Assembly: GCF_034119845.1 (NCBI RefSeq) | Contig: NZ_CP139420.1 | Location: 3,040,001 to 3,104,000, forward strand | DNA length: 64,000 bases | Reading direction: 5' to 3' | Origin: Flavobacterium sp. NG2 | GTDB taxonomy: Bacteria; Bacteroidota; Bacteroidia; Flavobacteriales; Flavobacteriaceae | Program-made: the position numbers and the translations under genes | Notes under the pieces: model-generated | Database searches by the model: none | Told to the model about the DNA's origin: nothing | What the model saw: only the letters and a program-made list of their open reading frames with translations | In this document: positions 14,911 through 44,654 of the stretch, piece by piece | Numbering within the stretch: position 1 is the stretch's first letter | Layout: the number at the start of each line of letters is the position of its first letter

Positions 14911-15579
14911 TTTTTTATGCCCACTAGACGTGGATTTGCGATAGGGTATGGGGAAAACGGACAAGCGGGGGGTTGAACCTTATTATAGCGGATTATATGT
15001 CGGAGTTTTTGGGCCTTGGGGCGTCCATCAGTGAGCGTTGCGGGCGCTTTGGCCAAATAATAAAAAGCATTCTTCTAAAAGACTACCCGATCTTGTTAGG
15101 TCCATAATGCAACTCAACTGATTCAAATGCGACCAATCCGAATACTATGAGTGAGAAAATTCCTCATTGCGGCAAAATACCGGCGACTGAGAGTGCTATG
15201 AATAAGGCGGTATTTCTTACGCGGTTCTGTCCACAAATGCCGAACTACTTTGGAGGCCAACGGTAGTTGGACTGCGTGTACTAGCGTGTCATGAGTACCA
15301 CCATCGTGAATTATAATAGCAACCATTCGCGTAAAGAAGTTACCAAAGAATAACGAAAATCTATTTGCTATACCTATGTCGCTGGGAGGTATACCACTGA
15401 TTTTGCCACAAGGCAGCCATGAGGCCCAACCACTTTACAACTAGGTAAAATTGTGGAGAAAAATTGGAACTTTATTCAAAACATACCCAAAGGCTTTTGA
15501 ATTTCACAAAGGTTCGATGCAACCATCGTCAAATAAGGCAGTTTATGATTTCCTAAAGGTCAGGGTGAACCACAGCGTT
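14911..15579 (-). repeat. Pass 0: tail of a backward raw-read pass
   Basis: From about 15,000 the sequence aligns, with many indels, to the reverse complement of about 39,350 down to 38,776. The piece at 15,040-15,100 matches the reverse of about 39,290-39,360. The piece at 15,480-15,545 mirrors 15,640-15,720 across the adapter. It therefore carries part of the NADH dehydrogenase gene in plus orientation, broken by read errors. Everything to the left of it dissolves into G/T-rich calls. Not a separate locus. Confidence 0.85.
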
Positions 15580-15630
15580 ATTCTCTTCTCAACAACAACA
15601 ATCGAGTGGAGGAAAAAAAAATACTCACAG
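15580..15630 (+). other. Uncut SMRTbell adapter, copy 1
   Basis: This is an error-containing version of the PacBio hairpin adapter: a CT-rich start (ATTCTCTTCTC), the AACAACAACAA core, GGAGG followed by an A run, and an ACTCACAG tail in place of AGAGAGAT. The flanking sequences are inverted copies of each other, as expected either side of a hairpin that was read through. Confidence 0.93.
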
Positions 15631-18600
15631 ACTGGATGCAAAAGAAATTGTATAATCAACAACTGCCTTATTTCGACCGATGGTTGAGCCATCGAAACCT
15701 TTGTCGCAATATTCGCAAAGGCCTCCTATGGTTGTTTGTGAATAAGACCTTGCACAATATTTTCTCCCAAAACTTTTACCTTGGTTGTATAGCTGTGGCC
15801 ATCAAGGAGCCCTTGTGAATATCTCTGTTGCCATGACAAGCGACATCGCGCCTATTAGCTAAGAGATTTTCCTACCCGTGTATTATGGCTTAAATTACAT
15901 GTTCCGCGGAATGCTTTCCGCTTTTCATTTCATTATCGAATCGGGGGCTAATGCCTGCACCAAAGCCCCGTGTACACCTGAAGGGTGGAAAAAACATCCA
16001 AATCACTCGTTGCCGCCTCAAAAGTCAGTCGGAATTTGTGGTAACAGTTCGACCGTTATAGTGTTTTTAACACGCCACATGTTGTCCCAAATACGCACAT
16101 CCTAAGCCTACCATGAATTTTCGATCGCCGCAATCGAGATTTCTTCTCACTCATAGAGTCAGGACTTCGGGTCGCCACTTTGAATGCAGATTGATGTGAG
16201 CATTTTGGAAATATTCAAGATCGGGTTAGTCTTTTGAAGTATCTGGCTCTTTTTTCATTTCTGGCCAAAGCCCAGCCATCTCTATACTCCTGTGGTCCGC
16301 CACCCCCAAGGACAATGTAATAAGACTTGCTCTTTCAGCTTATATCGTTGGTTAAAAAACCGCTATGCTCAAAGGTTTTCCAAAATCAAACTTCGTATAT
16401 TCAACGCTTGTGGGATGTTTTCAGCTGCCATGCGGGGGCGTCTAGTATCTTTGTTACCAAAAATAATGCGTTTTTTGCCCCATGTTGCCAAGGACCAAAT
16501 ATAATCATAACGCAAGCGCCCCTAATGGCAGTATGGTGATGTGGTTGGTTTGTGTCAATTTCGCGTACATTTTAGACCTAAAAGATAAATTATCATATTT
16601 CCAGAATCACTTTTCGCCATAGTTATAAGCCAATCGACCCGTGTCGTCGAGAGTCCACCTGTTGCTACTTGATACAGTAAGGTTTGAAAAGTTTAGGTAA
16701 TAATGTTTTATCTCAACATAAGCACCACGTGTACAGCTTTTGTTTCTAAGGCTTTCGCCAAAGCGAGATGCCCTGCAAAACCACCGCCATGTATAACTAA
16801 TTCTAGGTAATGAGGTATTTTGGAATATTCATGATTTACGATAGGTTAGAGGTTATGAGTCCGTTAGAAAAGGCTTATTCGTTAAGGGTAATATGATTGA
16901 TTTGCGTGTAATCGGCTTTGAAGTTACGTAAGTATTTCAGTCGATGATGCAGTTAACCAATTAATCCGGTAAACTCTTCAACGACCTTACTAAACCTCCA
17001 TTCTCTCAACCTATTCATTCGTTCTTGTTTCTTCTAGTTCTTCAACCGAAAGCACATTAAGGAAATGATGAGATGTTGCTCTAATCGCTTACTCTACTTT
17101 GTCTACAATTTCGCGTCATTCGTGTGTCGTTTTCATAATCAAATTGCAATGGCTCTTTGATGATTAGAATGATTGTAAAATGTCCTGGTTTTCTTGACAA
17201 CGCAAGCCTTTTTTATCATATGATCGCGGACACCGTCAATGACGATAGGTATACAGACAATAGGCCTATGTTTGTTTGGAGTAAGGTGGGCTGTTCCTGT
17301 TTCGAACAGGTTTGAAATTGATTGGGTAGGTCCTTGCGGAAAGTAGCATCACCTTCCGTCCTGTAGTGCTATTGTTATAGCACAGTAATCGATGTAGGGT
17401 GTACTTCTTTTTTCGGTTTCATCTAACTCCGTTTGAACGAGCCAAGTAGCGTTTCAACTGTAATGCTCCGGCCATACGCGCATAATAACGAGGCAACAAG
17501 CCCGCTGCATGGTTTCTTTTGGCCGCCTACAATAATATATTATTGAGTTTAGGTCCCACAGATCAGCCTACATTTTTGATACTAACAGTATCGAACCGCT
17601 CAATCTTGCATTTAAAACATGAAACATGGCCACCACATCCCCAAAATATGTTTGAATGGTGGATACAAAACGTCCATGGTGTCGGGGTAAATTGTGATCG
17701 GATGTCAGAACCGTCAAATTTGCCAATGTCATTATACCCCGATAACGTCTATGAAGTTAAGGCGCCAAAAACACGAATAACCACGTGTGATAAACAAATA
17801 TATAGACCAAAGGATTGCGTTGTTTAATCATTCCCAGAAAAAAAATGTTTCTATAATAATGTTGGGGTACGAATTGTACTCCATTTTTTCATAACTATAG
17901 AATTGGTTTAGCTGTTCACGAGCCTGCGATTAGCTGAAGTTTGAGGGCGAGTTTTGAGTGAGTCTATGAGGGCCGTGTGGTGAGCTTGCTAGGCGCATTA
18001 CTTCCGTTAATACTGCGTTTTAAGGCACTCAACCAGCATGGGCAGTTTGCTCCCACACCTTTTGTCCTTCAATTTCAAATGCCGGCACTTCTCAGTATTC
18101 GGTGCGTACGAGGTTCTGTCAAATAACGTAACTTGTACAAGAATATCTTCTTCCACCTCAAAAACACAGATAAAGGCATTTCAATTACTCGTATTCTACT
18201 TTCAGAAGGTCTGGTAACTATAGCATCGATTCGGTGGTACGTAATGCCACCATAAAAGAGGATAATGACCAAAAATTGCGAGCGGAATAGATAAATAGGC
18301 TAATAATCGTTTTTATTTCTGCATAAAGAGCAGGCGGCACTCCTACTTCTTCCATGTGTTTTTCAACACGCAAGAGGCTGTTTGTGCTTACACACCATCT
18401 CTGAGCTTCAAATTGTGCCCACAGGATTAGCTGATTTGTCCAGAATCGAACCCGTCCATAGTAAAAGTGCGAACAATCAAAACCAACTGTTTAATACCTG
18501 CATTAGGAGTACAAATACGCAGCGTTACAGGCTGCCAGTGTTTTGTTTTTTTGCGTCAACGTCAATGATCTTTAGGACTCTCTCCATGCGCGCAAGGAGA

Positions 18601-21600
18601 CCTTTTTGTGCATGAGCACACCGTGAGCAGGAAGTGCAGCCTTAATATATGTGGGAACAATTCTAAAAACACTAGATGAAAATCCACCACACTCTCACCT
18701 CATTTTTTTGCAGACCGTAGCCAGTATAAAGTATAGTCTAGAAAATAAAGCTTCGCGCAGTTTTCCGGAATTCTAAGCGCATAACACAATGTACAGTAAA
18801 GCAGAAAGTCAAAAAAGCAAAAGAGAAATTGTGGTCACATTTTGGCCGAAAATGAGCCTCGCGATATGGGTTACTTTATGATACTAATATCAATAGACTT
18901 TTAGCTGTTAAGTTTTATGTTAGAATAAAAATATGCTCAGGTTTTCATTGATAATTGCCATCGGAAGTGTTGAAAAACAGTTGCGGCTTATTTTTGAAAA
19001 ATTAGTAGCCTTAAAAACATACTCGAAGAAGAATTTAGCAAAGACTGGTAGTCGAAAAAGAAATAGTCCTTGAAGTGGCAAAACTATAAGTCGTAATCGG
19101 GTAGTAAATTTAGGTGTCGGTTAGTCGCAATAGAAATCATTGTGGACCTCCATTTTTGACTGTCTTTTTGGATTTTCGAAAAAAATGAATGTTTGGAGGC
19201 GTTTCTATTTGGAATATGACGAATTATATTAAAGGATATAGAATAGCATTCGGCCTATGGAACAGAGTAGTTCGTTTTTTCCTACAATATTGTGACTTAT
19301 ATTCAACGCATTTGCGATTAGTCTGTACAAAGATTTTTGGTCTAATCACTATGCTTGTCTTTAAAAAATCAACGACCTTAGTGTATGTCAATTTCTAAAC
19401 TACAGTATTTAGGACCAATGTAAAAAAACCTAAATAAATGGAGGCAAATGCTCATTCTTAGTGAACACTATCTGACTTCGGCCGTATTGGCTCCTATGTG
19501 TATTGTTTTATTCATGAAGGGAGTGTGAATTGATTACCAATATTCATCTCATTCAGTAAGTTTTCAGATCCCCCTATAAGATAAAATTTGGGAGGCGAAT
19601 GTGCCTTGTAACAGTTGATCGCACCAGCTCATATGATTGGCGAATAATGATTGTTTTGGGTTTACGCACTAGATGGGCCAAGAATAGCGCAACTACCTAT
19701 GGTAGCAGGAGCGGTATTGTAGCGCGAATGAATTATATGGCAACACACAATACTATTTCTAGCCGGCTGTTACTTTAGCAATTGGTATTTTCTATTTTAT
19801 TGTTGGTAGCGGTAATTACTCTGCCGATTACTATTTCAAAATGCAGCATTAACCAATAATTTTTTTAACCAAAAAAATCCGCACATTGCTGTGAGGCATG
19901 TGGTGGTAGATGTAAGATCTGATTGTGTGTATTCCTAGCCCAGATTGAAGCGGCCATCCTTAGTGGTCGCGGCAGTTCTCGCCACAAAGATAGAGCGGAC
20001 AGCTGAAATAGTCTCGCCGCCCTAAAAAAAAAGTGCGTAATATATAAGTTATAGCCACTAGTGTTTTGATAAAGCTTTGAACCTTGTAATTCCCTTTTGT
20101 TTGAGTATCTATTTGATGCAATCGCGCTTATGTTCCCGGTTCTATGACAGTAGAGACGTGCAATTATTCGAAATTTCCTTTTGTAGTTGTGTAAAACCAA
20201 ACAATGTGGAGCCTAACACATCATAAACAGCTAGTGATTTGAGTGAGAAGTTCAGTGTGGACCGTAGAGACATGAAAAGCTATCTACTGGATAGGATGAT
20301 ATTGTAAAAGAGGTTGCAAAAATTCTAAGTCAATTGGTTTCCTACATGACTCTAATCACATGATGACTCGACAACACAATACAATGTAAACCTTGTTGTG
20401 TATCGTTTAGTGTTTACAAATTATTTACGGTCATAGATCCAAGCCCACACAACATAGGTAAGAATTAGGTTGAGCGTGTTTGTAAAAGGATTACCTTATG
20501 GAGTGTTAGTTTGACCTGGAGGATTAGGAATACCAATAACAATTCACTGTGGTTGGTGAAGATAGGTGTTTAGTTAAAAGTATGATCTACATGAAATTAA
20601 CCGAGAGTACAAACCAAAAAAATCAATTTGGAGATTTTCCCGAAGCATGATAAAATGGGAGGTCTTGAGATAGTTCTTAAGTCCATAGGTCACCAATAGT
20701 TATGAAAACTACAATCTAATATTCTCTAAGAAACTCCGTCGGGGGGGGGGGTGGGGGGGGGGATTAATGGTTGTTAAATTATTATGACTGACTACATTTG
20801 AGATTTATAAACATTTTTATACAACCTAAAACCATCTATTAAATCTAGGAACTACAATCCAGTTCCATTTAGAACCACATCTCCGAATAGTTCAATGAGT
20901 CAATGTGATATCATGGCAAATTAAGAGTTCCAAGATTTACTAAAGAACTCACGATCCAAAGACGACTGAGTTTATTTCCATTCCATGAAATATAACTCTA
21001 GAGTTGTCAAAACATGAGAGACTTCTAGACACTTGATATATGTGATTTCCTGATATATTCAGCACCAAAAGGTATTATTCAAATTCCTGTCATGGTCGTA
21101 ATTGGATCTAATTCGATTACCATACACATCTCAGATATTTGAATTTTGACAATCCTGTTAAATTGTGAGAATTGATAAATCATTTTTACCTAAAAACATC
21201 TATAATTCTCTAGATTGCTTTGCCCTCCATTAAATTTGATAGATGTTCAATAAATTTTTCCGGACTACGCAGAGTAAGTTAGAGTACTTAAACTCCGACA
21301 AATTGCTAAACGGCAGTAAGTGTTATTCTGCTCACCAACCAACTCTTTTGAGTTTACATTAAACTAGTACTAACATCTAATTCTGTTAGTTGGTTTATAA
21401 GCCACAATTAAACAGTTTCAAGTGTTATTTAACCCTGTTTACATGTAAAATGTAGTAAGCAAATGTGATATCACACCTCAAATACTGAAGGTTTCTCTAG
21501 GCTACAAACATTAAATGACGTAAGCTTCTTATTAGTACAATTTAATGATTTTAAATTCGTCAAACCAGTTACAAGCTAGTGAAGAAAGTAGTTAGTATAA

Positions 21601-24600
21601 CAATTCAAACCCTGACAAAAAAAAAAATATTTGTAAAACCGCTAATCCCTGACTAAAGAGTTATTATTGCGGTAAAACTTAACTGTCCCAATTCTTGTAG
21701 TTAGAGTGCTTCTCTATTCTTGGATTTGTTCCGTCACTGAGTTAGCAGCAACTTTAAAATAATTTCCAGTCTAAAATTTTTTGCGTGTTGTAGTACTAGA
21801 ACTCGCCGCTAATAACTTCGCTTAAAATTAGCATCTAGGAATATTCACTATCTTAGTGCAACAACATTATTCAAAATAAATCTAATGCTATGTTACTAAA
21901 AAGTAGTTTTTCCTTCATTTGTAAGATTTTGGAGCAAATATACCACAAAAACTACCACTACATAGTTTCCTACTTTAAATAATTTTAAACAAAAAAAAGC
22001 CTCACAATCCCTGTGAGGCTTTCTATTTCTATAAAAAGTGTGAATTATGTTTTTCTCAGAGTTTTCCCATTTAGCCTTTCTAGAGCTGCGAATACATCAT
22101 GAGTGTTGACACCTCAAAGTCGCCGCTGGTGCGTTAGTACGATGCTGATGAATATTTTCAGTTGCTGCTTTCACATTTTTCTCTTCTTACTTCACGGAAG
22201 ATAAGCTGGGTGAGTATGCTACTTACTCTTTTGAATCTCTTGTTGAATTCAATGTACTTTGAAATCTGCAGATTCACCTTTGTTTTCAATTTCTTACCGT
22301 CATCGTTGTGTCATGGTGACGAGTAGAATGAAAGCAACGATAGCACTCTCCATAGTTCTACAAGTAGCTCCTTGTGTCAACAATCTCAGAGAGCTCTCCG
22401 TTGTGGATAGTTTCCAACAGCGAATGAATCTTCGTACTGATCCCAGGTTAGCAGTGAGTTTGTTTGTGACCTAACGAAAATTATACGTCCGGCTACAGCT
22501 AATTGCTATATACTACAACGGCAAGTTGTTGCACCAACGTTTACAAACTCAGGTGGGTGTTTGATGTGCTTAGGCCCAAGCATATGTCCAAGATAGTCGA
22601 TGAAGTCCTTCATTTCCTTCTGCTATTTCCATACGAAAAATACCCAAAAGTTTGTGTTTTTCTAACGAATACCTGGAGGTTTAGAAACGACCGACTGGGT
22701 ATTGAAGCACGTAATATCAGTCCCATGGTTCTTGAAGAATTGTTTGGAGACCTAATGACATCTTACGATCGTCCATGCTCATCGATTTAAGATCTCCCGA
22801 GCTTCGATTACATCACCTCCGTTTACGAAATCTTGAGCAGAACGTAAATGAGTAGACCATGAACATTTCAAAAACGTGGGATTAAACCGTCAACACCTTC
22901 ACGACTTCGTATGAAAGCTCCGTTATTCAGCGATAACTCCAACTTTACCAGTAAACGTTATCACACAAGAGTTAAGTTTGACATCAAGTGTCATCCCATG
23001 TGGTGACGTGCGTTAATTGTTTTCAATTCCTAAGTGATTCTTGTTATGTCCTCAGCTTCGAAAGCAGATGACATACGTGTAAATTTTGGATCGTAATGCA
23101 AGACCTCAGATGTGGTGAGTTGATCTAGACCTAGAAAGGTCAGTATAAGTGGAATTTAATCGCTTCGAACACCACCTAAGTCAATAAACACACGGTAAAA
23201 GTAATGTTATCTTAACAAAACACCTTCTATTACTTGTCCTTTTTGTACTATAATTGACCCATGAGTTCTTTCTTTATTGATACTTCAAGTATCCGCCTTC
23301 AAATAAGCGAGCTTTGTGAGATCAACACGTTTTTAAAATTCGTGGTGTGATGTTCACAACTTTGAATTCCTTAGTGTTGGTTTACGTAAACTGTCATAAT
23401 CTCGAATTGGTGTAATCATCAATTTGCAGACCCAGGTAAGAACGCTTCGAGTCCGAAAACGTCAACGAGCATAACCACCTTAGTTCTATACATGTAACAT
23501 AACCATTAACGATGGCTCCCGTGTCAGTAGCAGCGATAAACGCGATCCCATTGATTTGATGTACGCCTGTTCTGTGAGTACAAGTCTATTTGACCTGTGG
23601 TAATCCGCTACGGAGGTCAATCAAGTACCGCGACAGATCCCACTCACCTCCCCAAACACCAACTTTGGAAGTTGGGTGTAACGGAATTCGTGTTTAAAGA
23701 GTCGAAACACCGCTGACTTCATGCTTTGCATCAACTATGAACGTCGCTATCAGAATTCGTACACACCTACACCATCGACTACTTCTTCGTGATCTGGTAG
23801 CGTTAAACGTTTTTGATACTAAGTCGTCAGAATTCGTGCAAGTGTTGTTCATCTATCTACTTCAATTCCTTCTTCGAATTGTCCAGTTAATATGTGCTAT
23901 ATACGCTTCTGTCTTGATTTTCAACATGCTATTAAAATGTTTATTCGCTGCCGTAGTTCTATGAGAGAAAACAACAGAATGGTTTTATAATAATATACCT
24001 ATGGAAACCTTATCACCAAAAGACTGCAATATGAATACATTTTTAGTGTAACGACATAAGAAAATACTACATAATTACCACAAACAAATACAAACACCAT
24101 AAAGTATCTTTTCCTTTTTTGGAGCATAATCCCGGTTCTCTTCTCACTCCAGCCCTCATGCGCCGTGAGCGCTCCGCCCAAGCTCACTACAATTCCGCGC
24201 CTTCTCTATATTGAGTTGGTGTTTTCTAATTATTTATTAATGACTCTTACGCGAAAAAAATTACTCTTGTTATTTTTATGAAAGATAAGGAGATATTTGA
24301 TCAACAAATAAATCAAGCCGGCTTATTCAACTATGGGTATATCTGCAAGATTTGTGGTCGTAACAGATAATGTGCCAAACGAAACAAAAAAGAAGACAAA
24401 AAAATGAAAAATGTTAAAAAACCGTTAACAAATAAAGTAATCATAAATCATAACTGAAGGGAAACGGGTGGGAATCGCAACTTACGATACTTTTATGATA
24501 CCATAGTTCTCAAAACAATAATTATAAATGACTTGCATTTGGCTAGTTTACTCATTTATTAATGCAGGAAGTGACTGGTTATTGCTTTTGCAAACTATAA

Positions 24601-27600
24601 TCAAAGCTAACTCACAAATTCAAGATCAATTTGATTACAAAATTACTTCAAATTTGTTATAGACTTGAACAATTTAAAACTCGAATTTCAAAGTCAAAAT
24701 CATCGTACTAATAGGAAAAAATAAAAAAAGCTTTACGATATCACAATACATTTTTCAGTACTGTGATAAAGCTGATAAATCTATATTCTTTTTGCAGACA
24801 AATTTAATTTTTACATCCAGAATTCTTCTGATTGAAATCTTGATCAAAGATATAAAATAAAAAATAGGCGACCCATTTTACTAGATGGAAAAATCTTCGT
24901 GTTCTGATGAAATTGTCAAAATTAATTTAGAACAGATTTCGATCATAATTTTATAATATGCTCCAATATAAATCGGAATTTATTCTCAAATAGTTATATA
25001 GAATTTTGACGAACTATCGTGAATATTATTTAAAATATTATAATTAATCACAAAAGCCATTTTTAAACAAATATTTATGTTTTTTTTGATAGATTTTATC
25101 GATCTATATGTATAGATAAAGCATTTAGACAGTATTGAAACTAAAAATTTGTATTAGAATATTTATGATACTAACTACTTACGAACTGTTGACTTATGTG
25201 TTCCAGCTACATCTAAACGATTTTTGATATCACTCAAATATTAAAAAATTCAATTATAATACAATAACGAAATAAAAGATTTAATATTGCGCCTTCAAAG
25301 ATACGAACACCAAAATTTAAAATAACAAAGATTAACTAAAAACCGCTCCACGAAGAATCCTAGACTCCACGAAGAATACCCTCGCTCCCGCCCATACGGT
25401 CATGCTTTGATGATAATCGAGACGTGATGGACTGCTCCCGAAAGACAAAATACTATCGAATGCTGCGCAAATTCTCGCTGCCAATTTTTACATGTGAATA
25501 ACAAATGCGCCTAAAAGTATACTGACTTTTCGACAAAACATTTTTTAACCCCAAATCTGTGCAAAATCCAAACATACCGAGTATAATCTTATTGCTGATA
25601 TTTGAGTCACCATACTAGAAAACACTATCAGACACGTTAGTCTAAAGCACTTTTCATTTCGTACCAACAATATACAAACCTATCAAACGCCGCTAGAGAA
25701 TTAGATTGGAAACCATCGTGTATTGTACGCGGTAATAATTCGATTTTTAATAGCCTTAAAAACAGAGTACCAAATACCTAAGTTTTACAGTTCCAATATA
25801 ACCCAATGATAAACGATTTATTAAAAAAAACATCACCAAAACATTTTCTTTTTCTACACTGTTAAAGTGTTTGCCGATGTTTACCCTAAAACGATGAAAA
25901 AAATTCTCAGCAAGAAAGTCGGGAAGTTTGAAGGGGTGTATTAGACTTGTTTTTGTTTTCACATCGACAAATAGAAATGAAAACACCTCGATTTGCCGCG
26001 AAAAGATGGGATAATGATTTTGATAGTTTTATGATCAAGCAACTCGATATATTTATCTAGCGTTGAAGAAGTGAATCCTGTGATAAATGAGAACGATATA
26101 TGCGTTATACAATCCTGCCTGGGGAAAAACTGTAATCTTTCTCCATAAACTTGGGTGCTTCAAAGAAATTGATCGAAACATCCATACTGCAAAAGATCGA
26201 GATCGTTATTTTATAGAAAACTACCCCAACATCGCCTCAAAAATCAACGACAAACTAATATCAAGGACCTTGAATGACTCATATCCTAAGTAAAAGCAAA
26301 TAGCAAATATAATAAAATTCCTTGTTATTGATAACGTGTCAAATATGCGCATATTGGTGACAAATTTGGTACGATAAAGGTGGAATCTAAATGAAAAACG
26401 ATTATTTGTTTAACAAGCTCTCTCAGAATTAGAAACACTGGAAAAATACAGGTGTGGAATTGAAAGTGCCGCCCCTATTATCGATTATATGACAACGAAT
26501 GAAATAAATCTAATTCTCCTAAAAAGCCTACCTCTTGGACCCACTTAAGAATTTCCTATGCAATTCACTCAACCTTCCATTCTTGGATTAATAGATCTCT
26601 AGCATAGGGCTTATACCGTCTCGGTACGATTATCCGAACGAGGTAGCATTTTGTACCCAGGGCACGACCCACGTTGGATTTAGCCGAAATCTTAATTCAT
26701 GCTCGTATGTTTGGGGATCATACCCTAAAACCTTAAGCGGGTGGCACCCCATTGTTTAAAAACGTAAACTGAGGGCACACCCTTTATATTAGTAAAAGTA
26801 AAACAGTTCAAATGCAAAAAATGCCTTTGTTTTAGACCACGATTGTCCTGTTTTGGTGTGGTAAAATTGATAATACAACATATTTTGTCCAAAGAACTTA
26901 GCGTGAGTAGTGATGACTCCTAGTTTAAAATTACAGACAAAGTTCCCTCCTCCCGAGCTTTGCTCAATAATTAGTAAGCAATTATTAATATAAATTAGTC
27001 ACTAATCAATTAAATGTTGGATTGTGTGTTTTTCAATACATTATCTCCCTGTCAGTCATCTCTATTGTCAATAACATGTTGCAGTTTTACTGTTTTTCTG
27101 TCATTTACTCTTAGATAAATATGTTCGACCTAGTACTGTTAGTGGGCTTGTGTGCGGCATCGGTTTATTAGCGTGCCCTAGTGCAGAGGGTGGGTGATTG
27201 TGTTCCATCAATTTATCATATTCCGCCTACTGTTGGATCAGCGTCACCGGAGGTTTAACTTACCCTACCAGTGGATGAGGAGATCATAGTACTAGCTAAT
27301 ATGTTTTATCTCTGGCCAGAGGGAATTAAATTTAAAACATTATGAGGGCGAGTGATTAAGTGGTACTATGTACAAATGCTCGAATGCTACAAGACCTGTG
27401 CGTTAATATGGCGAATCTGTTTAACAATAATAGAACAAATGTAAAAAAAAGAACCTATTTTTTTATTGCTATCAACCAGTGCATTCCGCTCAAAGAGGAC
27501 AAGCCATACCCAATCAATGCAAGAACACTACAAACAACATCTGGATCCGCACAATCTGTTTAAATAATAGTTTCCTTTTTCAGGAGGACACACTCTAACG

Positions 27601-27604
27601 GTGG
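15631..27604 (+). repeat. Pass 1: error-rich direct copy of about 38,776-50,580
   Basis: Colinear degraded copy of the right-hand genome segment, offset by about 22.8-23.0 kb. Approximate content: NADH dehydrogenase 15,650-16,830 (-); PlsC-like 16,980-17,880 (-); NUDIX 17,980-18,690 (-); DUF4268 18,790-19,230 (+); DoxX-like 19,430-19,850 (+); LRR protein 20,040-21,940 (-); rpsA 22,030-23,950 (-); AbiC-like 24,410-25,330 (+); Crp/Fnr 25,790-26,290 (+); DJ-1 26,390-27,000 (+); GlcG-like 27,000-27,400 (+); start of the propeller gene 27,430-27,600 (+). No frame stays open for more than about 100 codons, because insertions, deletions and substitutions occur every few bases. The genes should be annotated once, in the clean copy. 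Confidence 0.93.
20741..20762 (+). other. G/T insertion burst in pass 1
   Basis: A 22-base run of G with one T interrupts the degraded LRR gene copy. It has no counterpart in the clean copy near 43,515 or in the inverted copy. It has the same composition as the first 9 kb and is best read as a short episode of the same signal artefact. Confidence 0.85.
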
Positions 27605-27644
27605 ATCTCGCTCATCAACTACAAACAGAGGAAAAAGAGAAGAT
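27605..27644 (+). other. Uncut SMRTbell adapter, copy 2
   Basis: Degraded hairpin adapter in the same orientation as copies 1 and 3: ATCTCGCTC, a CAACTACAAAC core, AGAGG, AAAAAGAGA and AGAT. The sequence before it ends at the equivalent of about position 50,580. The sequence after it restarts as the reverse complement of the same point, so this is the right end of the library insert. Confidence 0.92.
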
Positions 27645-30600
27645 TACACACAGACGTAGCTGTCAATTCCTCATAAAGTAATTTTATTTCGGGGGATAGT
27701 AGGTTCGGACTGGGGGGTTGGGGGGGATTTCCGCCTGAGAAGTTGTCAATCGTTGAGCGACGAATGTTATTACAAGATTATACCGTTGAATTGGTTGGTA
27801 AGTCTGTCATTCATTATTTTATTTAAGTGGAGCTTATCAATACAGTAAGCTCCAATTGTTCAATTCGTGACTGTTCATTAGACCACCACTTTTTCCAATC
27901 ACCAATAAGTGCATTCTTATTGGTTATTGGCATCGCCATCCTGAAAAACAGAATCCATTATTAAGATTCGATGTTATAAATAATCCCTCTGGGTGAGGAC
28001 CTAAGCTCCGCTGGACAATGTACACCGTTTTGCGTTTTTGAAGCCAGCAATACACCATAAATATAGCCTCCATTCGGAGTAACCTTTAAGTGACACAGCA
28101 GCCTGACCAACTGCTATATTGTCATAATTTTAGCGTCTCGGTTTCTGTGCTTGGTGTATAGCGGGAAAGACTGCATTTAAGCGTGAAGGTGTAGTCTGAC
28201 TGTTGGATATAGTAAGCAAGGGTAAATACAACATTCAAAAGTTTAAGGTGTAATGAATCATCGCTTATGTAGTTTATGATGATAATTGTCAACAGCTAGA
28301 TGAACCGATTGTCCTGTATTTAAGATGGACCGTCTCTAGACATAAGACCCAGCTTCCCTTGGAAATATATCCCTTTGTTGGTCATTCTTGCGCAACCATA
28401 ATAAACAAGCGTCTATACCAATGCATTCTTCGTTTGGGAAATGCCTTTTCTGTTGTGTGCTTGTGTTTTCTAATGGTGCCAGGACTGTCGTCGCGTTCAA
28501 AACGATAGCTTCAAACAGACACTCGACATGTTAGCGTTGAATTAGCTTTCAAGAAGACAATCAATGGTTTGTCAGTAAAATCCCAAATTCCTGACCACCT
28601 GGGAAAATTTCCAGCATATTCTTTGAGTTACAGCTCAAGACGAGGTGACCTAGGTGGCAGTGTATGTTCTTATCATACATTGAACGGATGTGGCGTTTTA
28701 AAATCTGGTACTTTACTGGTGGCTTAAGCCCTCCCTTAAAAAAATTATGTTACCTTAATTTTCGGTTGTCATTAAATATAATAGGGAGAGAATATTCTTC
28801 GAGTCCTATAAACCTTTTTTTTCTCCATTTTCCTTATTCATCTGTTTATAAAAATATACGTTTTTTTCTATTTTGGTTTAAAATTTTTATAAAAAATTGT
28901 AAAACCTTAGAAAAAGATTGTACAAGGTCTACTCTAGATTTATATAACAATGGTTGTTGCCTTGGTAGTTCTTAAATCAGAGATGGCCTTTGAACTTGCG
29001 ATTGGTGTCGTTTTGATTTTTGAGTGCGATGTTGGTAGTTTCCTTGAAATAAGATACGTTCTTTGTGCTGTGATGCTAGTTCTAGCATTCTGGCTTGTCC
29101 TACTACCAAAGCTTTTTGAACAATCGATAAAACATGTTTCCTTACAACAGCAGAGTCCGAGAAACCAATTTATCTTTCAGTGATCAAAGATCTTCACTGT
29201 CTTCCAAACTAAAATTTAAATCAAGCTTATTGATTCAAAAACTATAAATATCCATAACCACCTATCTTAGCGCAAATAAGCTGTTTTCTGGCCGGTTTAG
29301 GTCAAGTAAAATTCCAAAACACCGTCTTTTACAAAAACCTTCAAACTACAGACTTCTCCTTCACTAGCATATTCCTTGTCTTAATCTGTTAGGGTTAAAA
29401 GATCGGCAAAACACTGCTAACTCAGTTAGATAATGAAATGTTTGGATTGTGCGGTGAAATAAATCTTATCATTTGATTTGACTGTAAAAACTTTACGCTG
29501 TTTAAATAGGGTTTGTATATGTTAAAAATCCAAATTAACGTAAACTAAGTACAATAAAAAAGTTCTCACAATCGTATCCTCTTAGCTTGATTGCTTTGTT
29601 ATTCGTTGGTACGAAATAAATTGCATTTGACTACCGTTTGATTGTTTTATAGCTTTGTAAAATCCAAATAAATCCCACATATATATATCGGGAGCGTTTG
29701 AGATTTGACACAACACCGATTGGGGTAAAAAATTTTGTAGAAAGTCTATACTTTTAGACGAGTTCGTTTAATAAACTTTAAATGGCCAAAGTCAAGAAAT
29801 TTGCCAGCACTTAGAAGATATTGTACTCGTCAGACATGAGATTCCACGGTATCGATCTAATCGACAAGCCATCCAAAAGTATTCGCGAGCGTGTACTCTC
29901 GTGATCGAGTTTCTTCGTGAGCGGTTTTAGTTCAATCTTGTATGATTATGTCTTCCCGTAACCATTTGAAGCCAATTTAATGCGCCTTTTATTGGATTAT
30001 TGTACTTAATAATTGAATGTTTATTGCTTTGGACGTATTCATCTCTAAAATCGTTAGATCTACGCTAACCAAATAAGTAATTATTCGTAAGTATTAACTA
30101 GCAATAAAAGTTCTAAATAAAATTTTGTCTGCAAGACTGTCTATAGCTTTAATATCATAGATAGAGATCGTTAATAACTTTCAAAAAAACATAAGTTGTT
30201 TTTAATAAAGTTTGTGAGATAAGTTATAATATGTAAAAGAATATCATCCGTTTGTTCGTAAAAATATTCTTAAATTCTCTGATATAAATATCAAGATCCT
30301 TAGATGAGAATATTCATAAAATTCATGATCGAAATCTCGGTCATAATTTAATTTTCGATCTTTCTTTTTTGTTTTTTCTTCAGCGGCAACAGAGAGCATT
30401 TGTAAATATGTGTGAATATCAGGGTATGCTTGTGGGTAACATGCGTTGATATAAGTTGATCCAAATTGCAGCCCTTGAAATTTCTGGCGATGAAAAGTTA
30501 TAATGTGGGTAGCCAATAACGGTTTACTTGTCTTTTCTCCGTTAACTAACATTCTGAAACAATGTATTTGGTAGATTAGTATAGCCTTTTTCTATTTTTT

Positions 30601-33600
30601 CACTATTGAGGACTTGAATTTCTGAATTTGATAATTCGAGTTTGAATATTGTCCGAACAAGTCTATAAAAATTCTGATCGTAATTTTGCTGAATAAATTA
30701 TCTTACGTATTGTGAGTTAGCTTTGATTTGTGCTTTGAAAGCTATTTAAACAAGTGCACTTCCAATGATACGTAATACAAAGAGTCTAAACATAGTTTGC
30801 AAAAGGTTCTCCATCTTCATGAATTATTCTGCTTTGCAGCAAATATTGGTATCACTAAAAGTACTAGTTCTGTTGCGATTGAAAAACAAAGTTTCAATTA
30901 AAGTTCTTGGTGTTGGATAAGGTCATTTGTGTTATGTACAAGTAGTTGTCTGTATTCTATGGTGTGTTGCGTTGGCCAACCTACGTAGATTGACAAACTA
31001 TATCTTCGCAGAATAGACCCAAAGATAGTAGATTTATGAGGATTGTTTCTTTTTTAGTGTGCATCAAATATAGCCTTTTATGTCATAAAAATCTCTCTTG
31101 AGTAATTTTTTTTGTAAGATTCCCAGATAAACTAACTATAGAATAACATCACCTACAACAGCCTAGCCGGATGAGCCGGTATCCTGCGGTAGTCCCGGAG
31201 ACGTCGGACGGATGATTTAGGCGAGAGCTGATGGGAGTGTGTTGGTGTAAACGGGGGGCTTTTTGCTCTAATAAGAAAGCCAGGAAAACCGGTGATATAT
31301 GGTTATGTTTTGTGGTTTTGTGGAATTATCAGTAGTATTTGCTTGGTTGTTAACTAAAAATGTAGTAATTGTTGCAGTCCGTTTGGGGAATAAGAGTTTC
31401 CTCGAGTTTTCAGGTTAAGTATGACAAACAAGCTTCTGGTGTTTCTCATCACTCATATACGCAAACAACCAAATAAACAAATGTTTTAATCAGCATGTCT
31501 GAACAAATCCAATACCCAAAGAATTTTAGCAATTTTAAACTCACAATTTGCGAAAATATTATTAGTAGAACAACACTTGCAAGAATTCGAAAATTAGTAC
31601 AAAACGGTGTATCGACGACAATCAAGGAAGAATAGTAGATGGGTTGTTTTAAATTACTAGAAACTTATCTGTGGGATATCAAGCTAATCTGAAGTGGTTA
31701 TGCTCTTTAAACGAATTCCGTACAACCCAAACTTAAAAAGTTTGATACGTAAAGAGGTTTAATTGACATCCGTGAGGATAAAAACATCAATTATATTGTC
31801 TCACAGAAAAGCGCTACTAGCAATTGCTGATAGATATCGCTGCATGAAACTGAGAAATCGGTAATTGGTTGTTAAATGTAAACTATAGGAGATCTTACGT
31901 TTCGATCGAACGTGCGTTACCTTCTCATATTGATGTTAATCCAATTAGAGATATGACTTACAGTAAACACAACTATGACTTCAAGTTGTAATCAACCACG
32001 AATTTAAAAACGTTGTTGGATCGCTCAAAGCGCTTATGAAGCGGATATTGAAGTACAAAAGAAGAAATCCTTGGTCAAATTACAAAAAGACAAGTATTAG
32101 AAGTGTTTTAAAACCAGTACTTCTTACGGTGTGTTTATTACTATGTTGATGATTAATCACATTACTGACCTTTCTTGTCTAGAATCAACCACCCATCTGA
32201 GGTTCTTGAATTGATCAAAAATTTAAAACGTTGTAATCCTTGATTCGATGATGAAACAACAAAATCCAATAGGATTGAAAGACAAATAAAAACGCTCACT
32301 ACCAGGGGAGGCACTTGATGCAAACTTAAACATTGGTATAAAGGTTTCTGGTAAAGTATCGTTATCGCTGATACGGAGCATTTCATCGTGTTGCTGACGT
32401 GTTTGAAGTTTAATCCACGTTTTCTGAAAGTCATGGCTACTCATTTACGTCTGCTCAAGATTTCAAAGTAGGGATAATCGAAATCAATCTTAACATTAGA
32501 TAAGAAAGATCGTAAGATACATGAGATCAAACAATTATCTCAAAGCCTGGACTATATTACTCTAAATACCCTGTAGGTCTAAACATACAGTATCGTTAGA
32601 AAACTTCACAACGGTGTATTGTTTTCGTAATTAAAGAAGAAATTGAATAATCTACATCTCTGAATTATCTGGACCTAAGAAAATGCAAACACCCAGCTAG
32701 GTTGTAAACGTGTGGAAATACTGACGTTGTAGGTATTAAAGTAGATGTGAAGGACCGAAATATCGTTAGTCACTAACAACACTGGCTAACCCGGATCAGT
32801 TACAAGAGCTGTCGCGTTGGATCATCCTCAACAAATCTCTGAGAGTTGACAAGTGTCGTCTGATTATGGGAATGATATCGTTGCTTTCATTCCTTCTCGT
32901 CACCTTGAAAAAGAAGACGGTAAAAATTGAAAAAAGGTGGAATCTGCAGATTTCATAGTAATGAATTCAACAAAGAATGCAAAAGAAAGTACATCTCACA
33001 CTGCAGCTTCACGTGAAGAAGAGAGAAAAAGTGAATGCTGCAACGAAAATACTTCATCTGCATCACGAACGCACCAGCTCGAATTTAGGTTGACAACATG
33101 GATGTATTACTCTTTGAAAGCGTAAAATGATAATTCGGAAAAATTAAATTCTCACTTTTTTATCATAAAAGCCTCTCAGGATTGACTTTTTGTGTTTATA
33201 ATTATTTAAAGTATAAAATATTTGATTTTTGTTGTATATTTGCCATAATCGACAAAAAAAAAACTACGGTGATATTGGCAGTATGTAGGGTTAAGAATGT
33301 GTCACAATATGAATATTCCTGACTACTTTAAAGGCGAAGTTATTAGCGCGAGTTCTATAAGACAACCGCAATATTTAGCTGAAATTATTTTAAGTTGATG
33401 CTAAAGTGACGGACAATCCAAAATGAAGCACTACACTAATAGAAGTACGTAAGTTTTACCGCAATTAACGTTTAGTAGGAATTACGAGTTTTTACAAATA
33501 TTCATTTTGAATTGTTATACTAACCTTACTTTCTTCACTAGATGTAACTGTTTGACGAATTTAAATCATTAAATTGTACTAATAAAGACTTACTCTTCAT

Positions 33601-36600
33601 TTAATGTTAGTGCCAGAAACCTTCAGTAGTTGTGGTGTATCAAAATTTGCTTACACTAAAGTACGGGAAAGTACCCGGGAAACTTTGAATTGTGCTGTAA
33701 CCATCGAACAAATTAGAGGTTAGTAGTTTAAGGAACTCAAATGGTTTGTGACAGAAGAAACTTACTGCGTTAAAGTTGTCGGTGGTAAGTACTCTTTCTT
33801 ACTCTGCGAGTCAGAAAATTATACTCTAATCAAATTTTAAGGGAGCAAATAATCTAAAATATAATTTTATAATGATTTATCATTTCTCATTTTAACAATT
33901 GTCAAAATTTAAAATATCTAGAATTGATGGAAAATCAATTAGATAAATTAGACTTGACAGGATTGAAATAATCTTGGTGCTATGTATATCAGAAATAATA
34001 GTTTCAATAATAAAGTCTCATCATGTGAACAAATCTAGAGTATTTTTCATTTATGAAATTAACCACGTCCGTATGTGATTCTTTAGGAAATCTTGAACTC
34101 GAATGGGGCCAGATAAGAAATACGATTTTATCTTGTATTGTCTAAAAACTGGATGGATTCTATTTATTAGAGGTTTTAGTGGTTTAAATATGTTTTTAAT
34201 CGAAATTCGTAGTCATATTAATTGTTCTTCAGTTCGTACGAGTGTGATTAGATTTAGATGTAAATTGTATTAATTTTACTTTGACTTAAAACCTATCAAG
34301 ACCTTTTATCTGCTTCGAAAACTCTCCAAATATTTTTTTTGGTTTGAAATTCGTAATTTCACTGTAGAATCCATGGTAACTTACTCCTATCTTTAAAAAA
34401 CCAAGGAATCGTTTTTGGGGATTCCTAATCTCCAGTCAAAATAACTCAATAAGTATCCGTTTACAAACCACCTAATCTTACTATTTGTGTGTATGGATGA
34501 TGACTAAATATTTTAAAAATAAAGCTTACACAAAAGGTGACATTATTGTGTTGTAATCTTCAGGATAGTTAAATTGAAACAAGTGACTTAATTTTTCAAC
34601 CTATTTACAATTCAGCCTTATCCAGTATATACGTTTCTAAGTCTCACGGTCAAAAAAGAAATTCTATATAAAATCATACTTTTATGATATGTTACCACTT
34701 GTTTTGTTTTACCAACTAATACAAGATAATTTCGAAGATTGACGTACTATCTGAGATAATCCCGAAATTACATTATCAAAAGAGATACCAAACAAAGATT
34801 TTTCATTCTAATTGATCAAAATCTAGTGTAACGAGATTTCCCTCTTGTTTTAACTATTTCCAGCGGGCCGCTCGTGCTTTGCCATGAAAGACCCCCCACA
34901 AGATGCCCTTCCATCTGCTAAATACACACAACGACCTTACATTAACAAAAAATCCTCACACAATGTAGGCATTTTTTTGGTTAAAAAAATTATGTTATTC
35001 TGCATTTTGAAATATAATCGCAAGTTATTAAAACCGCTACCATAAAATAAAAAGAAAATAAATAGGCTAAATAGGATCGAGCGCTATAAGTAATTTTGTG
35101 TTGCCCATATCATTTCTTAGAGCTACAATACCGCTCCTGCTAAAATAGTATTGCGCTATAGTGCCCATCTAGTGATAACCCAAAAACAATCATTATTCCG
35201 CCAATCATATGCGGTGCATATAATTACAAGGTAACATTCCCCTCCAATTTTTTCGATAGGATGAAATCGACTAAATAGTGAATTATGGTAATAATTCAAC
35301 TCCCTTCATATAAAAATACACCTAACATGGCGACAAATCGATAGTTAAATAAGATGAGATTTGCCCCATTATTAAGGTTGTTACTGGTCCATAATACTGA
35401 ATTAAAAGGGATACACTAAGTTGATTTTTTAAAGCAAAAGCATAGTATTAACCAAAAATATTGGTCAGACTACTAAAATAGTATTATAATAGAATATGTA
35501 GAAAAAAGAACTATCTGTAAATAAACGAATGCTATTCTAGACAGCTTTAATTATGCTCATAATCAATATAACTCCAAAGCATTCATTTGTTCGAAAAAGA
35601 ATCTTAAAAGGTCCTCATGTGGTCCGAGTCTATTAACCGAGACCACTAATTTTCTACCAATCACGTATATTTGGCCACTTTCAAGACAGAGTTCGGGTGC
35701 GAATAAAATCTGATAAATTCCTCTTCATATGTTTTTTAAGGCTACTAATTTTCAAAAGAAGCCGAACGTTTTTCATCACGTCGTCTCAATATCAATGTAA
35801 ACCTGAGCTTTTTATTAATCACATAAAACTTAAAAGAAAAAGTCCTTTTGATGTTTAGTAGCATAAAGGACCCATTTCGAGGATAGGTTTCGGCTAAATA
35901 CCCAAAATTCTCTTGATTTTTGACATCTGCTTTAACCGTCATTGTTTATCATTGAGTAAGAAAACTGCGAAGCTTATTTTCTAACATAGTATATGAGCTA
36001 CGTCGCAAAAATAAATTTGATTAGATTTTTCACTATTTTTTAGAAATGAGTTCCCCATATTTATTAACGAACGTCCTGCTACGGTTGGCTCATGCAAAAT
36101 GCTCCGGTAGCAAGGAAACTAAAAAATATTACGTTGAACCAACAAAAACAAAATCTGCAGCCTAATGAGGTTATTGATCCTAAAGCATGACACAGTTGTT
36201 TGATTGTGCGCAAATTTATATAAGCGTTCAGTCTGAACAATCGCTTTTCCTGGGCAAATTTGAAGCAGAAAGGGTTTTTGCACAAACACCTGCGTGAAAC
36301 ACATAAAGAATAGAGTGCCGCCTATTTTATCGAAATAAAAAAAATTTTTCGCCTATTTATATGCCTCCTAGCATTTTGGTTTAATCCGTTTATGACTTAT
36401 ACAAACGAAATCGCATTTGTTCCTGACCCTTCTGAATAGATCATAATGAATTGCCTTACTGTGTTTTTGATGAAAGAAAGTTTTAAAAGTACGTTGACCA
36501 ACCTCGTACAGCCAACCGATATTGAATCCGCATTTAAAGGGAAGACAAAGTGGTATGGGACAACGGCATGAGTGATGAATTAAAAAATATAAAATGTAAT

Positions 36601-38735
36601 AGGCACATCATGGTAACACGAAATATAGAATCAAAGCAAAAATAGTCACTAAAGACGTATCGAAGAGTTGTAACAGCGTAACCATCGATATTATGAAAAA
36701 ATGAGTACCTTCTGCCCCAACTGTATAAGAAACATGTTATTGGGATTAAAAACCATCCTTTTGTCATATATTGTTTTCAAAAGTGGTTAATGGCTGTTTT
36801 GCGCCTTAACCATAACGTGGCGTGGTTATTGAATTGCAATTTTGAAGGTGCTGTATTCATTAAAAATTACCCAATCCAATGCTTTTTGTATCCAACCAAC
36901 CATCAAACCTATTTGGCATGTGCCATTGTCAGGTTTTAATCAAGTTGAGCTCGACGATATATCAAAATGTACTATCTTGTACGAAACTCAAATATTTATA
37001 TTACGGCCAAGAAACAATCTACGGGCTTTCCTCGTATATGCGGATCCGACCATTACAGTTAACGTACTTTGCGTTCAAAAGGAGTAAATGAACCGAAAAA
37101 AAAAAGAGAAACCCTTACGATACTGAGAAATAAAACTACACTTCTGGACATGTGATTACTTTTCCCAAGAACTACCAATCATGTAAACCTTTCAACAGGA
37201 ACACCCACTTATCAAACAACATAAGCCTATTGTACCTATCGTCCAATACGTTTCCCGGTTCATTTGATAAAAAAGGCTGCGTGTCAGAAAAAAGGAATTT
37301 ACATCATTTATCATCAAGAGCCATTGCAATTTGATAAAAAAACGACACATTGACAAAATTGTAAAAAGTAAGTAGGCGATAAGCAACATCCAACATTTCG
37401 TAAAGTCTTCCGTGAAAACGAGAAACAAAAACGATTTGAATAGTTGAGAGAATGGAGGTTTAGTAAGTCGTTAAGAGTGTAAACGGAGTAATTGGTTAAA
37501 CTGCATTTAATCGACTGAAATAAGTAACGTAAAGTCTAACCGATTAAACAATTAACCTATTACCCTTTAAACGAATAACCTTTTCTTAACCGATGAACCT
37601 CTAACCTTATAAATCTATGAATATTCCAAATACCTCTTTAACCAGAAGTTGTTATCATTGGCGGGGGTTTTGCAGGAATCGCTTTGGCGAAAGCCTTAAA
37701 AAAACAAGCTGTACAAGTGGTGCTTTTTGGATAAAAACATTTACCATACTTATTCAAACCTCTACTGTATCTAGTAGCTTCAGTACTCGAAGACGGTTCG
37801 AATTGCTGATCCTTTGCGATAGTGATTCAGAATATGAATATATTTTATTTGAGGTTTAACCAATGGTTCGTGAAAGTGACAGCCCAAAACCAAAAAATAA
37901 GTACTGAAATAGGACTTGCGTATGATTATTTGGCGTCTTGGCAACTTGGGCAAAAACGAATTATTTTGGTAGCAAAGAAATAGAACGCAAACTGCCTGCG
38001 AATGAAAAACTTCCCACAATCGTTGAATAATTCGAAGTTTGATTGTGGAAACTTTGAGCAACGGTATGTAAAATACCAACGATATTGCTGAAAGAGACTA
38101 GTCTTATTAGAGTTTATCCTGGTGGTGGCGACCTAACAAGTAGAGTTGCTGGCGCTTTGGGCCGAAATGATAAACAGCCATTCTTTCAAAAAGAAAACTG
38201 ACGACCCGATCGTGATAATTTCCAAAATGCACATCAATCTGATGCAAAGTGGCGACCGATTCCGGAATACGATAGTGGTGACCTCTCGATTGCGCCGAAA
38301 AATTCTTGGAGACTGTAGGAGTGCGTATTTGGCAAAATGTGCGGTAAAAAACTAGAACGGTCGAACTGTTACCACAAATTCCGAAACTGACTGTTGAGGC
38401 GGCAACGTGATTTGGACGGCTGGTGTGCAAGCGGCTTTGTGGCATGTAGGACCCCCGATTCGTTTAATTGAAAAAGCGGAACGCATTCGCGAAAATGAAT
38501 TTTAGCCAAATAAAAGGACGAAAACTATTTGCTATAGGCGATGTCGCTTGTATGAAACACTGATTTTCCACAAGGCGCCTATAGCCCTACACTTTACTAA
38601 AGATATGGGAGAATATTGTGAACTTTGCAAAACAACATGACTTTTGAAATGGCGACATAGTCGATGCAACAAATCGGTCAAAAAAGCATAGTTTTTGAGT
38701 TACCTAAATTTCTGTTGAGACGCACATCTTGTGGT
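27645..38735 (-). repeat. Pass 2: error-rich inverted copy of about 50,580-38,776
   Basis: Reverse-complement degraded copy of the same insert. Approximate content, with strands reversed relative to the genome: propeller start 27,650-27,880 (-); GlcG-like 27,900-28,350 (-); DJ-1 28,350-28,855 (-); Crp/Fnr 28,950-29,550 (-); AbiC-like 30,000-31,000 (-); rpsA 31,494-33,130 (+); LRR protein 33,250-34,830 (+); DoxX-like 34,980-35,410 (-); DUF4268 35,540-35,940 (-); NUDIX 36,030-36,630 (+); PlsC-like 36,720-37,440 (+); NADH dehydrogenase 37,617-38,730 (+). A G-rich burst at 27,691-27,726 is a further artefact. All frames are broken by read errors. Confidence 0.93.
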
Positions 38736-38775
38736 ATCTCGCTCTACTACAACAACGGAGGAAAAAAAAAGATAC
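38736..38775 (+). other. Uncut SMRTbell adapter, copy 3
   Basis: The clearest adapter copy: ATCTCGCTCTACTAC, then AACAACGGAGG, an A run and GATACACA. The sequence on its left is the reverse complement of the sequence on its right. This is the centre of the apparent giant palindrome and the left end of the real insert. Genuine genome sequence in this window therefore starts at about 38,776. Confidence 0.95.
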
Positions 38776-39888
38776 ACACATAACTGTTATGTCAAAATGA
38801 AATTTAGGTAAATCAACAACTGCCTTATTTCGACGATGGTTGCCATCGAACCTTTGTCGCAATATTCAAAAGCCTCCATGGGTTTGTTTGAATAAGCTTC
38901 ACAATATTTTCTCCCAAAACTTTACTTGATGTAAAGCGGTGGCCCATCATAGGATGCCCTTGTGAAAATAGCTGTTTCCATACAAGCGACATCGCCTATA
39001 GCAAATAGATTTCTACCCTTATTATTTCTTAAATCATTTACGCGGAATGCGTTCCGCTTTTTCAATTAACGAATCGGGGGCTAATCCATGCACCAAAGCC
39101 CTGTACACCAGCAGTCCAAATCACCTCGTTGCCGCACTCAAAAGTCAGTTCGGAATTGGTGGTAACAGTTCGACCGTTATAGTTTTTTACACGCACATTT
39201 TTCCAAATACGCACCCTAAGCTCTCCAAGAATTTTGCGCCGCAATCGAGATTCTCATCATAGGATTCAGGAGTCGGTCGCCACTTTGAATCAGATTGATG
39301 TGCATTTTGGAAATATCAAGATCGGTTAGTCTTTTTGAAGAATGGCTTTTTTCATTCGGCCAAAGCGCCAGCCAACTCTACTCCTGTGGTCCGCCACCCA
39401 CAGGACAAAATTAATAAGACTTTCTCTTTCAGCTATATCGTTGGTTAAAACCGCTTGCTCAAAGTTTTCCAAATCAAACTTCGAATATTCAACGCTTGTG
39501 GGATGTTTTCATCGCCATGCTGTTGCGTTCTATTTCTTTGTTACAAAATAATTCGTTTTTGCCCAGTTGCCAAGACCAAATAATCATAAGCAAGCTCCCC
39601 TATTTCAGTATTTATTTTTTGGTTTGGGTGTCAATTTCTCGAACATGGGTTAACCTAAAATAAAAATTATCATATTCTGAATCACTTTTCGCATAGATAG
39701 CACATCGAACCGTCTTCGAGGTCCACTGTTGCTACTTGATACAGTAGAGGTTTGAAAAGTATGGTAATTGTTTTTATCCAAAAAGCACCACTTGTACAGC
39801 TTGTTTTTTAAGGCTTTCGCCAAGCGGATTCCTGCAAAACCACCGCCAATGATAACAATTCTAGGTAAGAGGTATTTGGAATATTCAT
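38776..39888 (-). CDS. Type II NADH dehydrogenase / FAD-NAD oxidoreductase, 3'-truncated, raw sequence
   Basis: Peripheral membrane NADH:quinone oxidoreductase family (single-subunit, FAD-binding, not proton-pumping). The start at 39,888 gives MNIPNTSYL followed, after a correction, by a VIIGGGFAG dinucleotide-binding motif and ALAKAL. A second conserved segment (AIGDVACME, then a GHPM-like piece and AFEYCDKGSMATI), typical of the family near the FAD-binding C-terminal part, reads from about 38,990 down to 38,820. The frame is broken many times because this is one uncorrected read pass; the mirrored copy at 37,617-38,730 breaks at other places. The gene runs into the adapter, so its membrane-anchoring C-terminus is missing. 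The breaks should not be read as real mutations. Confidence 0.7.
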
Positions 39889-40055
39889 GATTTATAAGGT
39901 TAGAGGTTAATCGGTTAGAAAAGGCTTATTCGTTAAGGGTAATTGGTTAATTGTTTAATCGGTTAGAATTTACGTAATTATTTCAGTCGATTAAGCAGTT
40001 AACCAATTAATCCGTTAAACTCTTAAACGACTTACTAACCCTCCATTCTCTCACC
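39889..40055. repeat. Intergenic run of degenerate GGTTAATCGGTTA-type units
   Basis: The gap between the two raw-read genes is filled with short related pieces such as GGTTAGAGGTTAATCGGTTAG, GGTTAATTG and their reverse forms TTAACCAATTAATCCGTTAA. They can pair with one another over long distances. The same arrangement is visible in pass 1 (about 16,840-16,990) and pass 2 (about 37,450-37,615), so the unit itself is real even though individual bases are not reliable here. Confidence 0.5.
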
Positions 40056-40875: not shown

Positions 40876-40957
40876 TAACTATAGATTGGTTTAGCTGTTC
40901 ACTATCCTTCGATTAGCTTATTTTAGTGCTAGTTTTGATTGATTCTATATTTCGTGT

Positions 40958-41608: not shown

Positions 41609-41701
41609 AATCAAATCTTATTTTTGCAGACCGTAGCCAATATAAATATAGTCTAGAAAATAAAGCTTCGCAAGTTTTCTTAATTCAAATCGCATAAAAC
41701 A

Positions 41702-42136: not shown

Positions 42137-42289
42137 CATTCGTTCTATTTAACAGATAGTTCTTTTTTCTAAATATTTACTTATAATCAACTCATTTCTA
42201 GTAGTCTGAACAAATATTTTTGGTCTAATCACTATGCTTTTGCTTTAAAAATCACTACCTTAGTGTATCAATTTCTAAACTACAGTATT

Positions 42290-42712: not shown

Positions 42713-42732
42713 CCAATAATTTTTTAACCAAA

Positions 42733-42766
42733 AAAATGCCTCACATTGCTGTGAGGCATTTTTGTT
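42733..42766. terminator. Hairpin terminator after the DoxX-like gene
   Basis: Ten-base perfect stem ATGCCTCACA / TGTGAGGCAT with loop TTGC, flanked by an A run on the left and TTTTTG on the right. It could work in both directions for the converging DoxX-like and LRR genes. The core stem GCCTCACA/TGTGAGGC is the same as in the hairpin at 44,658. Confidence 0.85.
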
Positions 42767-42791
42767 ATATGTAAGGTCGTTTGTGTGTATT

Positions 42792-42876: not shown

Positions 42877-42903
42877 AAAAAAGAGCGTAATATAAGTTAA
42901 CCA

Positions 42904-44580: not shown

Positions 44581-44654
44581 TTGTAAGATTTTGGAGCAAA
44601 TATACAACAAAAACTAACACTAAATATTTTCCTACTTTAAATAATTTTAAACAA

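Follow-up and report, generated by a model that had tools for sequence, protein, structure and literature searches.

The locus and its flanks

The window, i.e., the whole stretch of DNA analyzed here, comprises 64,000 nucleotides of Flavobacterium sp. NG2 (positions 3,040,001 to 3,104,000 of contig NZ_CP139420.1); for larger context, 280 kb around the window were taken. The contig has a total of 4,154,274 bases and is the only one of an assembly rated as 99.99% complete with 0.1% contamination. Without the extra sequence described below, the locus encodes, in this order, a DUF3810 protein, an NDH2-like oxidoreductase, an acyltransferase-domain protein, a Nudix hydrolase, a DUF4268 protein, and a DoxX-domain protein (Pfam). 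In the assembly, this gene order is interrupted by 107,189 bases, corresponding to 2.6% of the contig. From left to right, this extra sequence consists of a raw forward pass over a local segment (the insert) that breaks off at position 7,069 of the insert, noise over 76.2 kb, the tail of a reverse pass, an adapter, a forward pass, a second adapter, a reverse pass, a third adapter, and a forward pass that turns clean at ∼40,939 of the window (Table 1).

Table 1. Segments of the window, in window coordinates
Feature	Position	Strand	Characteristics
Base-calling noise	1–14,919 (continues left to genome 2,978,700)	.	Identified by composition
Pass 0, end of a reverse pass	14,920–15,581	−	Insert ∼12–729; match ∼0.77–0.78, deletions 0.14 per insert base
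Degraded SMRTbell adapter 1, at insert start	15,582–15,616	+	Score 51.0
Pass 1, full forward pass (aligned from 15,625)	15,617–27,604	+	Insert 2–11,831
Degraded SMRTbell adapter 2, at insert end	27,605–27,644	+	Score 46.5
Pass 2, full reverse pass	27,645–38,735	−	Insert 1–11,831, reverse strand
Degraded SMRTbell adapter 3, at insert start	38,736–38,773	+	Score 44.5
Pass 3, start of a forward pass (aligned from 38,792)	38,774–40,938	+	Match 0.95–0.98 to the clean left copy
Correct chromosome	40,939–64,000	+	40,939–41,538 identical to the left flank; true insert ends at ∼50,578

The size of the extra sequence was determined from its two flanks, in which base 2,974,000 of the genome (left flank) corresponds to 3,081,189 (window 41,190). 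The flanks have 600 identical columns in common, arranged as three blocks of 200 columns (genome 2,973,750–2,974,349 and window 40,939–41,538), and the left copy of the insert (genome 2,971,558–2,978,550) is 95.2% identical to window 38,792–45,815. When the two copies are compared block by block, bases are missing predominantly from the window copy before 40,939 and predominantly from the left copy from 2,974,350 rightward. From this cross-over, we conclude that the clean chromosome enters from both sides, up to ∼2,974,350 of the genome on the left and from ∼40,939 of the window on the right, and everything between is extra. A sequence-only reading of the window had described its left 38.7 kb as an untrimmed raw read fused to a correct contig. 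The attribution to a raw read holds, but the right edge lies at ∼40.9 kb, i.e., ∼2.2 kb further right, and the extra sequence starts ∼66 kb to the left of the window (at ∼2,974,350) with correct chromosome on both sides. Thus, the artefact sits in the middle of the 4.15-Mb contig and not at its left end.

The junction region is matched in at least 120 of 121 genomes of the genus, the genome of NG2 included. Five relatives were picked by hand among the stronger junction matches, and the following counts refer to these five and not to all 120. The genes flanking the join adjoin in all five; the genes for the NDH2-like protein, the acyltransferase, the Nudix hydrolase, and the DUF4268 protein lie within 5 kb in all five, and the DUF3810 gene is adjacent in four. 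The DoxX gene, which follows the DUF4268 gene in NG2, was found in none of the five, and the gap between the NDH2-like and acyltransferase genes is ∼1.5 kb in three of them (L116, L117, and L118) compared to ∼0.15 kb here. In one of the five (L115), one unbroken alignment runs across the join from genome 2,971,376 to window 42,135. To the right of the join, an S1 protein encoded at window 44,704–46,536 has up to 97% identity to those of named Flavobacterium genomes. Eighty loci around S1 proteins were collected, and the first 25 of these were compared with the joined locus; among the matches listed (the first 14 per locus by position), none was to the left flank, a result that does not bear on contiguity. 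A plasmid collection contained no match to window 50,400–64,000.

The surroundings of the extra sequence hold several other elements. Window 42,904–44,610 (−) encodes a leucine-rich-repeat protein with a C-terminal Por_Secre_tail sorting domain, whose reading frame stays open over 568 codons in the clean copy. A Flavo-1 RNA (RF01705, Rfam, 72 bits) lies at window 42,791–42,871 (+). Genome-wide, Flavo-1 has at least 112 matches at E ≤ 0.001, with 150 of 1,180 first-look candidates scored, and at least 103 above the family cut-off, and the copy in the window shares up to 98% identity with others; Flavo-1 here looks like a high-copy dispersed repeat. Because of the artefact, one true Flavo-1 locus is seen three times (at 2,975,599, at 3,059,933, where it is below the cut-off, and at 3,082,791). 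Another dispersed repeat of ∼326 bp occurs with 93% identity at window 53,801–54,123 and genome 2,900,166–2,900,489. To the left of the artefact, a local repeat family with units of ∼300 to 380 bp and 86 to 95% identity occupies genome 2,960,535–2,962,811; its units are in tandem from ∼2,961,700, with one more copy at 2,960,535.

Repeated passes over one insert and the adapters between them

Comparison of the window with itself by BLAST identified a 22.6-kb palindrome at 27,811–50,397 with 79.8% identity, and a direct repeat in which 15,034–26,534 is a copy of 38,142–49,356 (11.5 kb, 80.7%); the many further matches within bases 1–12,000 are due to the two-letter alphabet there. By comparison with the clean locus, the repeated unit is an insert of 11,831 bp that extends from genome 2,971,558 to window ∼50,578. 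Passes 1 and 2 both span the whole insert, and their insert ends agree within ∼2 bases. Pass 0 starts at insert position 12 and pass 3 at position 1, so that both share the insert start. Around the adapters, the insert is read in the order reverse, forward, reverse, forward, with 2 to 33% of insert bases mis-read. These observations bear out the proposal of the sequence-only reading that the same 11.8 kb is read forward, backward, and forward, to which the tail of pass 0 adds a further reverse portion. The NDH2-like gene contains the start of the insert; all 434 codons of this gene are present in the left copy, and in the right copy the adapter interrupts it.

The 280 kb were scanned by local alignment with the 45-base SMRTbell adapter, using the sequence given in Table 1 of PMC10936554. 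The three top places on the + strand are exactly the three turning points (scores of 51, 46.5, and 44.5), i.e., an adapter lies at all three turns and in one orientation throughout. No other unrelated place on the + strand scored above 33.5, and scores on the − strand did not exceed 31.5; 10 shuffled adapters scanned over 203 kb gave a maximum of 41.5. While the single scores exceed the shuffled control only modestly, the coincidence of the adapter places with all three turning points settles the identification. Degraded adapters in one orientation had been placed at 15,580, 27,605, and 38,736 from the letters alone, with spacings of ∼12.0 and 11.1 kb, and our alignments agree with this: all three are on the + strand at the intervals listed in Table 1, and their aligned starts are 12,023 and 11,131 bases apart. 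A search of the NG2 genome for a 20-base adapter core with up to three mismatches returned two matches, both at adapters of the window (two of the three), and the reversed control also returned two. With the 45-base adapter and up to three mismatches, none of 395 genomes of the phylum was matched, including that of NG2, whose adapters carry indels. Because this search is blind to the indel-bearing adapters of NG2 itself, its outcome says nothing on the frequency of such cases.

Accuracy was measured per pass in pieces of 600 bases against the clean locus. Over the first ∼7.3 kb, pass 1 matches 0.91 to 0.96 of the insert bases with 6 to 15% insertions; beyond this point, it becomes increasingly rich in deletions, with the match falling to 0.67 and deletions reaching up to 20%. 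Pass 2 matches 0.73 to 0.93, and deletions outnumber insertions in 16 of its 19 pieces. Thus, the mode of divergence (insertions, deletions, and substitutions) changes along the read. Deletion-rich stretches are less typical of such long reads than insertion-rich ones. Overall, the error profile, with insertions, deletions, substitutions, and broken frames, fits a continuous long read, the deletion-rich part being the less typical component. The left forward pass (match of 0.90 to 0.98) and pass 3 are more accurate than most of passes 0 to 2 (0.67 to 0.96) and may be partly polished. The consequences for coding capacity are evident from the 28 open reading frames of at least 120 aa in the window, nine of which lie in the noise, none at 10,781–40,957, and 19 at or to the right of 40,958.

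A 76-kb stretch nearly devoid of C

The noise has a length of 76,220 bases, of which 51,049 are G, 23,885 T, 1,279 A, and only 7 C, and the A's lie mostly at both ends. At its left edge, C is lost abruptly and then A gradually; at its right edge, A and then C return, i.e., in mirror order. In the window, A rises gradually rightward through the noise, and C reappears at 14,920. The 65,991 letters that consist of G and T have an entropy of 0.88 bits per base at order 0 and 0.85 at order 6, and their order is close to random. Neighboring calls are not independent, as the autocorrelation is −0.15 at lag 1 and −0.08 at lag 2. Among long lags, the largest autocorrelation is 0.015 (∼4 SD); it is the extreme of ∼33,000 lags, and we take it as no signal of periodicity.

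We also considered that the C-less calls represent the insert unchanged, with C deleted, or with C replaced. Four fragments of 1,000 bases beside the two switches were each subjected to five transformations and compared with 20 block shuffles. Only one of the 20 tests beat the best shuffle, by 0.2 points, as is approximately expected by chance, and these options were rejected. Two of the four sequencing dyes possibly share one laser, and we conjecture that calls restricted to G and T come from such shared-laser dyes.

Sequence made of G and T only has no stop codon in any frame on either strand, which results in giant stop-free frames. In the noise, the longest forward frame spans 22,532 codons, compared with 23,025 codons, counted from stop to stop, for a reverse frame. 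Stop-free frames lie at window 1–9,251 and genome 2,981,786–3,049,384.

Origin and significance of the extra sequence

Several lines of evidence bear on the origin of the 107 kb. A SMRTbell is a circle in which the two strands of an insert are closed by hairpin adapters. A polymerase that continues around this circle reads the insert, the adapter, the insert in reverse, the adapter, and so forth; normally, the adapters are found and the read is cut there. We consider it highly probable that the 107 kb are a single PacBio polymerase read, derived from one SMRTbell with an insert of 11,831 bp and placed untrimmed in the consensus. This explanation is supported by adapters at all turns, equal insert ends, error-like divergence, clean flanks, and relatives without the insertion, and the same observations uphold the suggestion of the sequence-only reading that missed adapters were read through and that the structure is not a palindrome. 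We suggest the following sequence of events. Within one read, the signal would have failed for ∼76 kb and then returned. The adapters would have been too degraded for the adapter finder, and the read would not have been split into subreads; the degraded state of the adapters would explain why they were missed. Because the two ends of the read map in one direction to one locus, the assembler would have taken it as a bridge and treated the untrimmed read as unique sequence, so that ∼7 kb of the locus would have been duplicated, flanking ∼100 kb of nongenomic sequence.

The noise and the left raw copy very probably belong to the same read as the adapter passes, as judged from their position and the shared insert. 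Alternatively, two or more raw reads or unplaced contigs could have been joined, with the noise stemming from one and the adapter passes from another, in which case the stretch would still be an artefact. That no adapter is recognizable inside the noise and that the left forward pass differs in accuracy from the passes to the right of the noise would suit such a join. However, the left raw copy and the right passes stem from the same insert, C and A are lost and regained in mirror order, and unrelated reads would need to overlap within the G/T noise. We, therefore, regard a join of several reads as unlikely. Altogether, it is nearly certain that the 107-kb stretch is an assembly artefact of one of these two kinds, i.e., a single read or joined reads.

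Two other explanations have only a minute probability. Biological inverted-repeat amplification yields one segment in alternating orientation, as seen here; adapter sequence, sequencing-error divergence, and C-less noise are not expected of it, unlike what is found. If the 11.8-kb segment were truly palindromic or amplified in tandem inverted form in the bacterium, this would account for the alternating inverted and direct copies, but not for adapters at all three turns, passes that depart from the clean locus to the extent given above with additional insertions and with indels throughout, broken frames that leave no open reading frame of at least 120 aa across the passes, the adjoining 76 kb nearly without C, and flanking genes that lie together in every inspected relative; its copies are neither nearly identical nor under coding constraint. 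Similarly, palindromes from whole-genome amplification (multiple displacement) yield the same forward/reverse structure (PMC6218980), but need no adapter at a turn, whereas here every turn carries one and successive turns reuse the same two insert ends instead of being adapter-free and at varying positions.

Chimeras that result from missed adapters are already described in print (PMC4134206 and PMC6218980). According to PMC4134206, the high error rate occasionally prevents the correct identification and removal of adapters, resulting in forward-adapter-reverse chimeras; adapter sequence was present in 620 of 217,502 subreads, and such chimeras can give false hairpins and small spurious contigs. 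As described for Pacasus (PMC6218980), missed adapters give the same palindromic read structure and can affect assembly. The chimeric subreads of PMC4134206 share with our case the order of insert forward, adapter, and insert reverse as well as the false hairpins in assemblies; by contrast, the outcomes named in that report are false hairpins and small contigs of spurious sequence, and our case comprises four passes, of which two are full-length, plus 76 kb of noise inside a single-contig chromosome. The palindromic reads treated by Pacasus (PMC6218980) likewise have alternating inverted copies in one read; those arise in amplification, whereas here adapters lie at all three turns and the insert ends recur. 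The unusual aspects of our case are its size, its survival in a single-contig assembly of such high rated completeness, and a frame that remains free of stops over 22,532 codons.

The structure is not a biological feature and has neither biological function nor biological novelty. With its recognition, a giant inverted repeat and a duplication of ∼7 kb can be dismissed as false, along with 76 kb of noise; for users of this genome, this means that all of the 107,189 extra bases, ∼2.6% of the sequence, are artefact. Completeness and contamination scores, with the values of 99.99 and 0.1 reported for this assembly, are blind to such an error. Gene finders could call giant false proteins in the noise, and such proteins could enter databases. 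Tentatively, and with somewhat less than even confidence, we suggest that NG2 may exemplify a broader, so far unscreened class, in which whole raw polymerase reads with signal-loss noise persist in single-contig genomes that represent their species. If so, these genomes would have inflated sizes, duplicated genes, and stop-free frames of >20,000 codons that gene finders might accept, and the class would be detectable by screening simply for long stretches of two or three letters together with indel-tolerant adapter matches.
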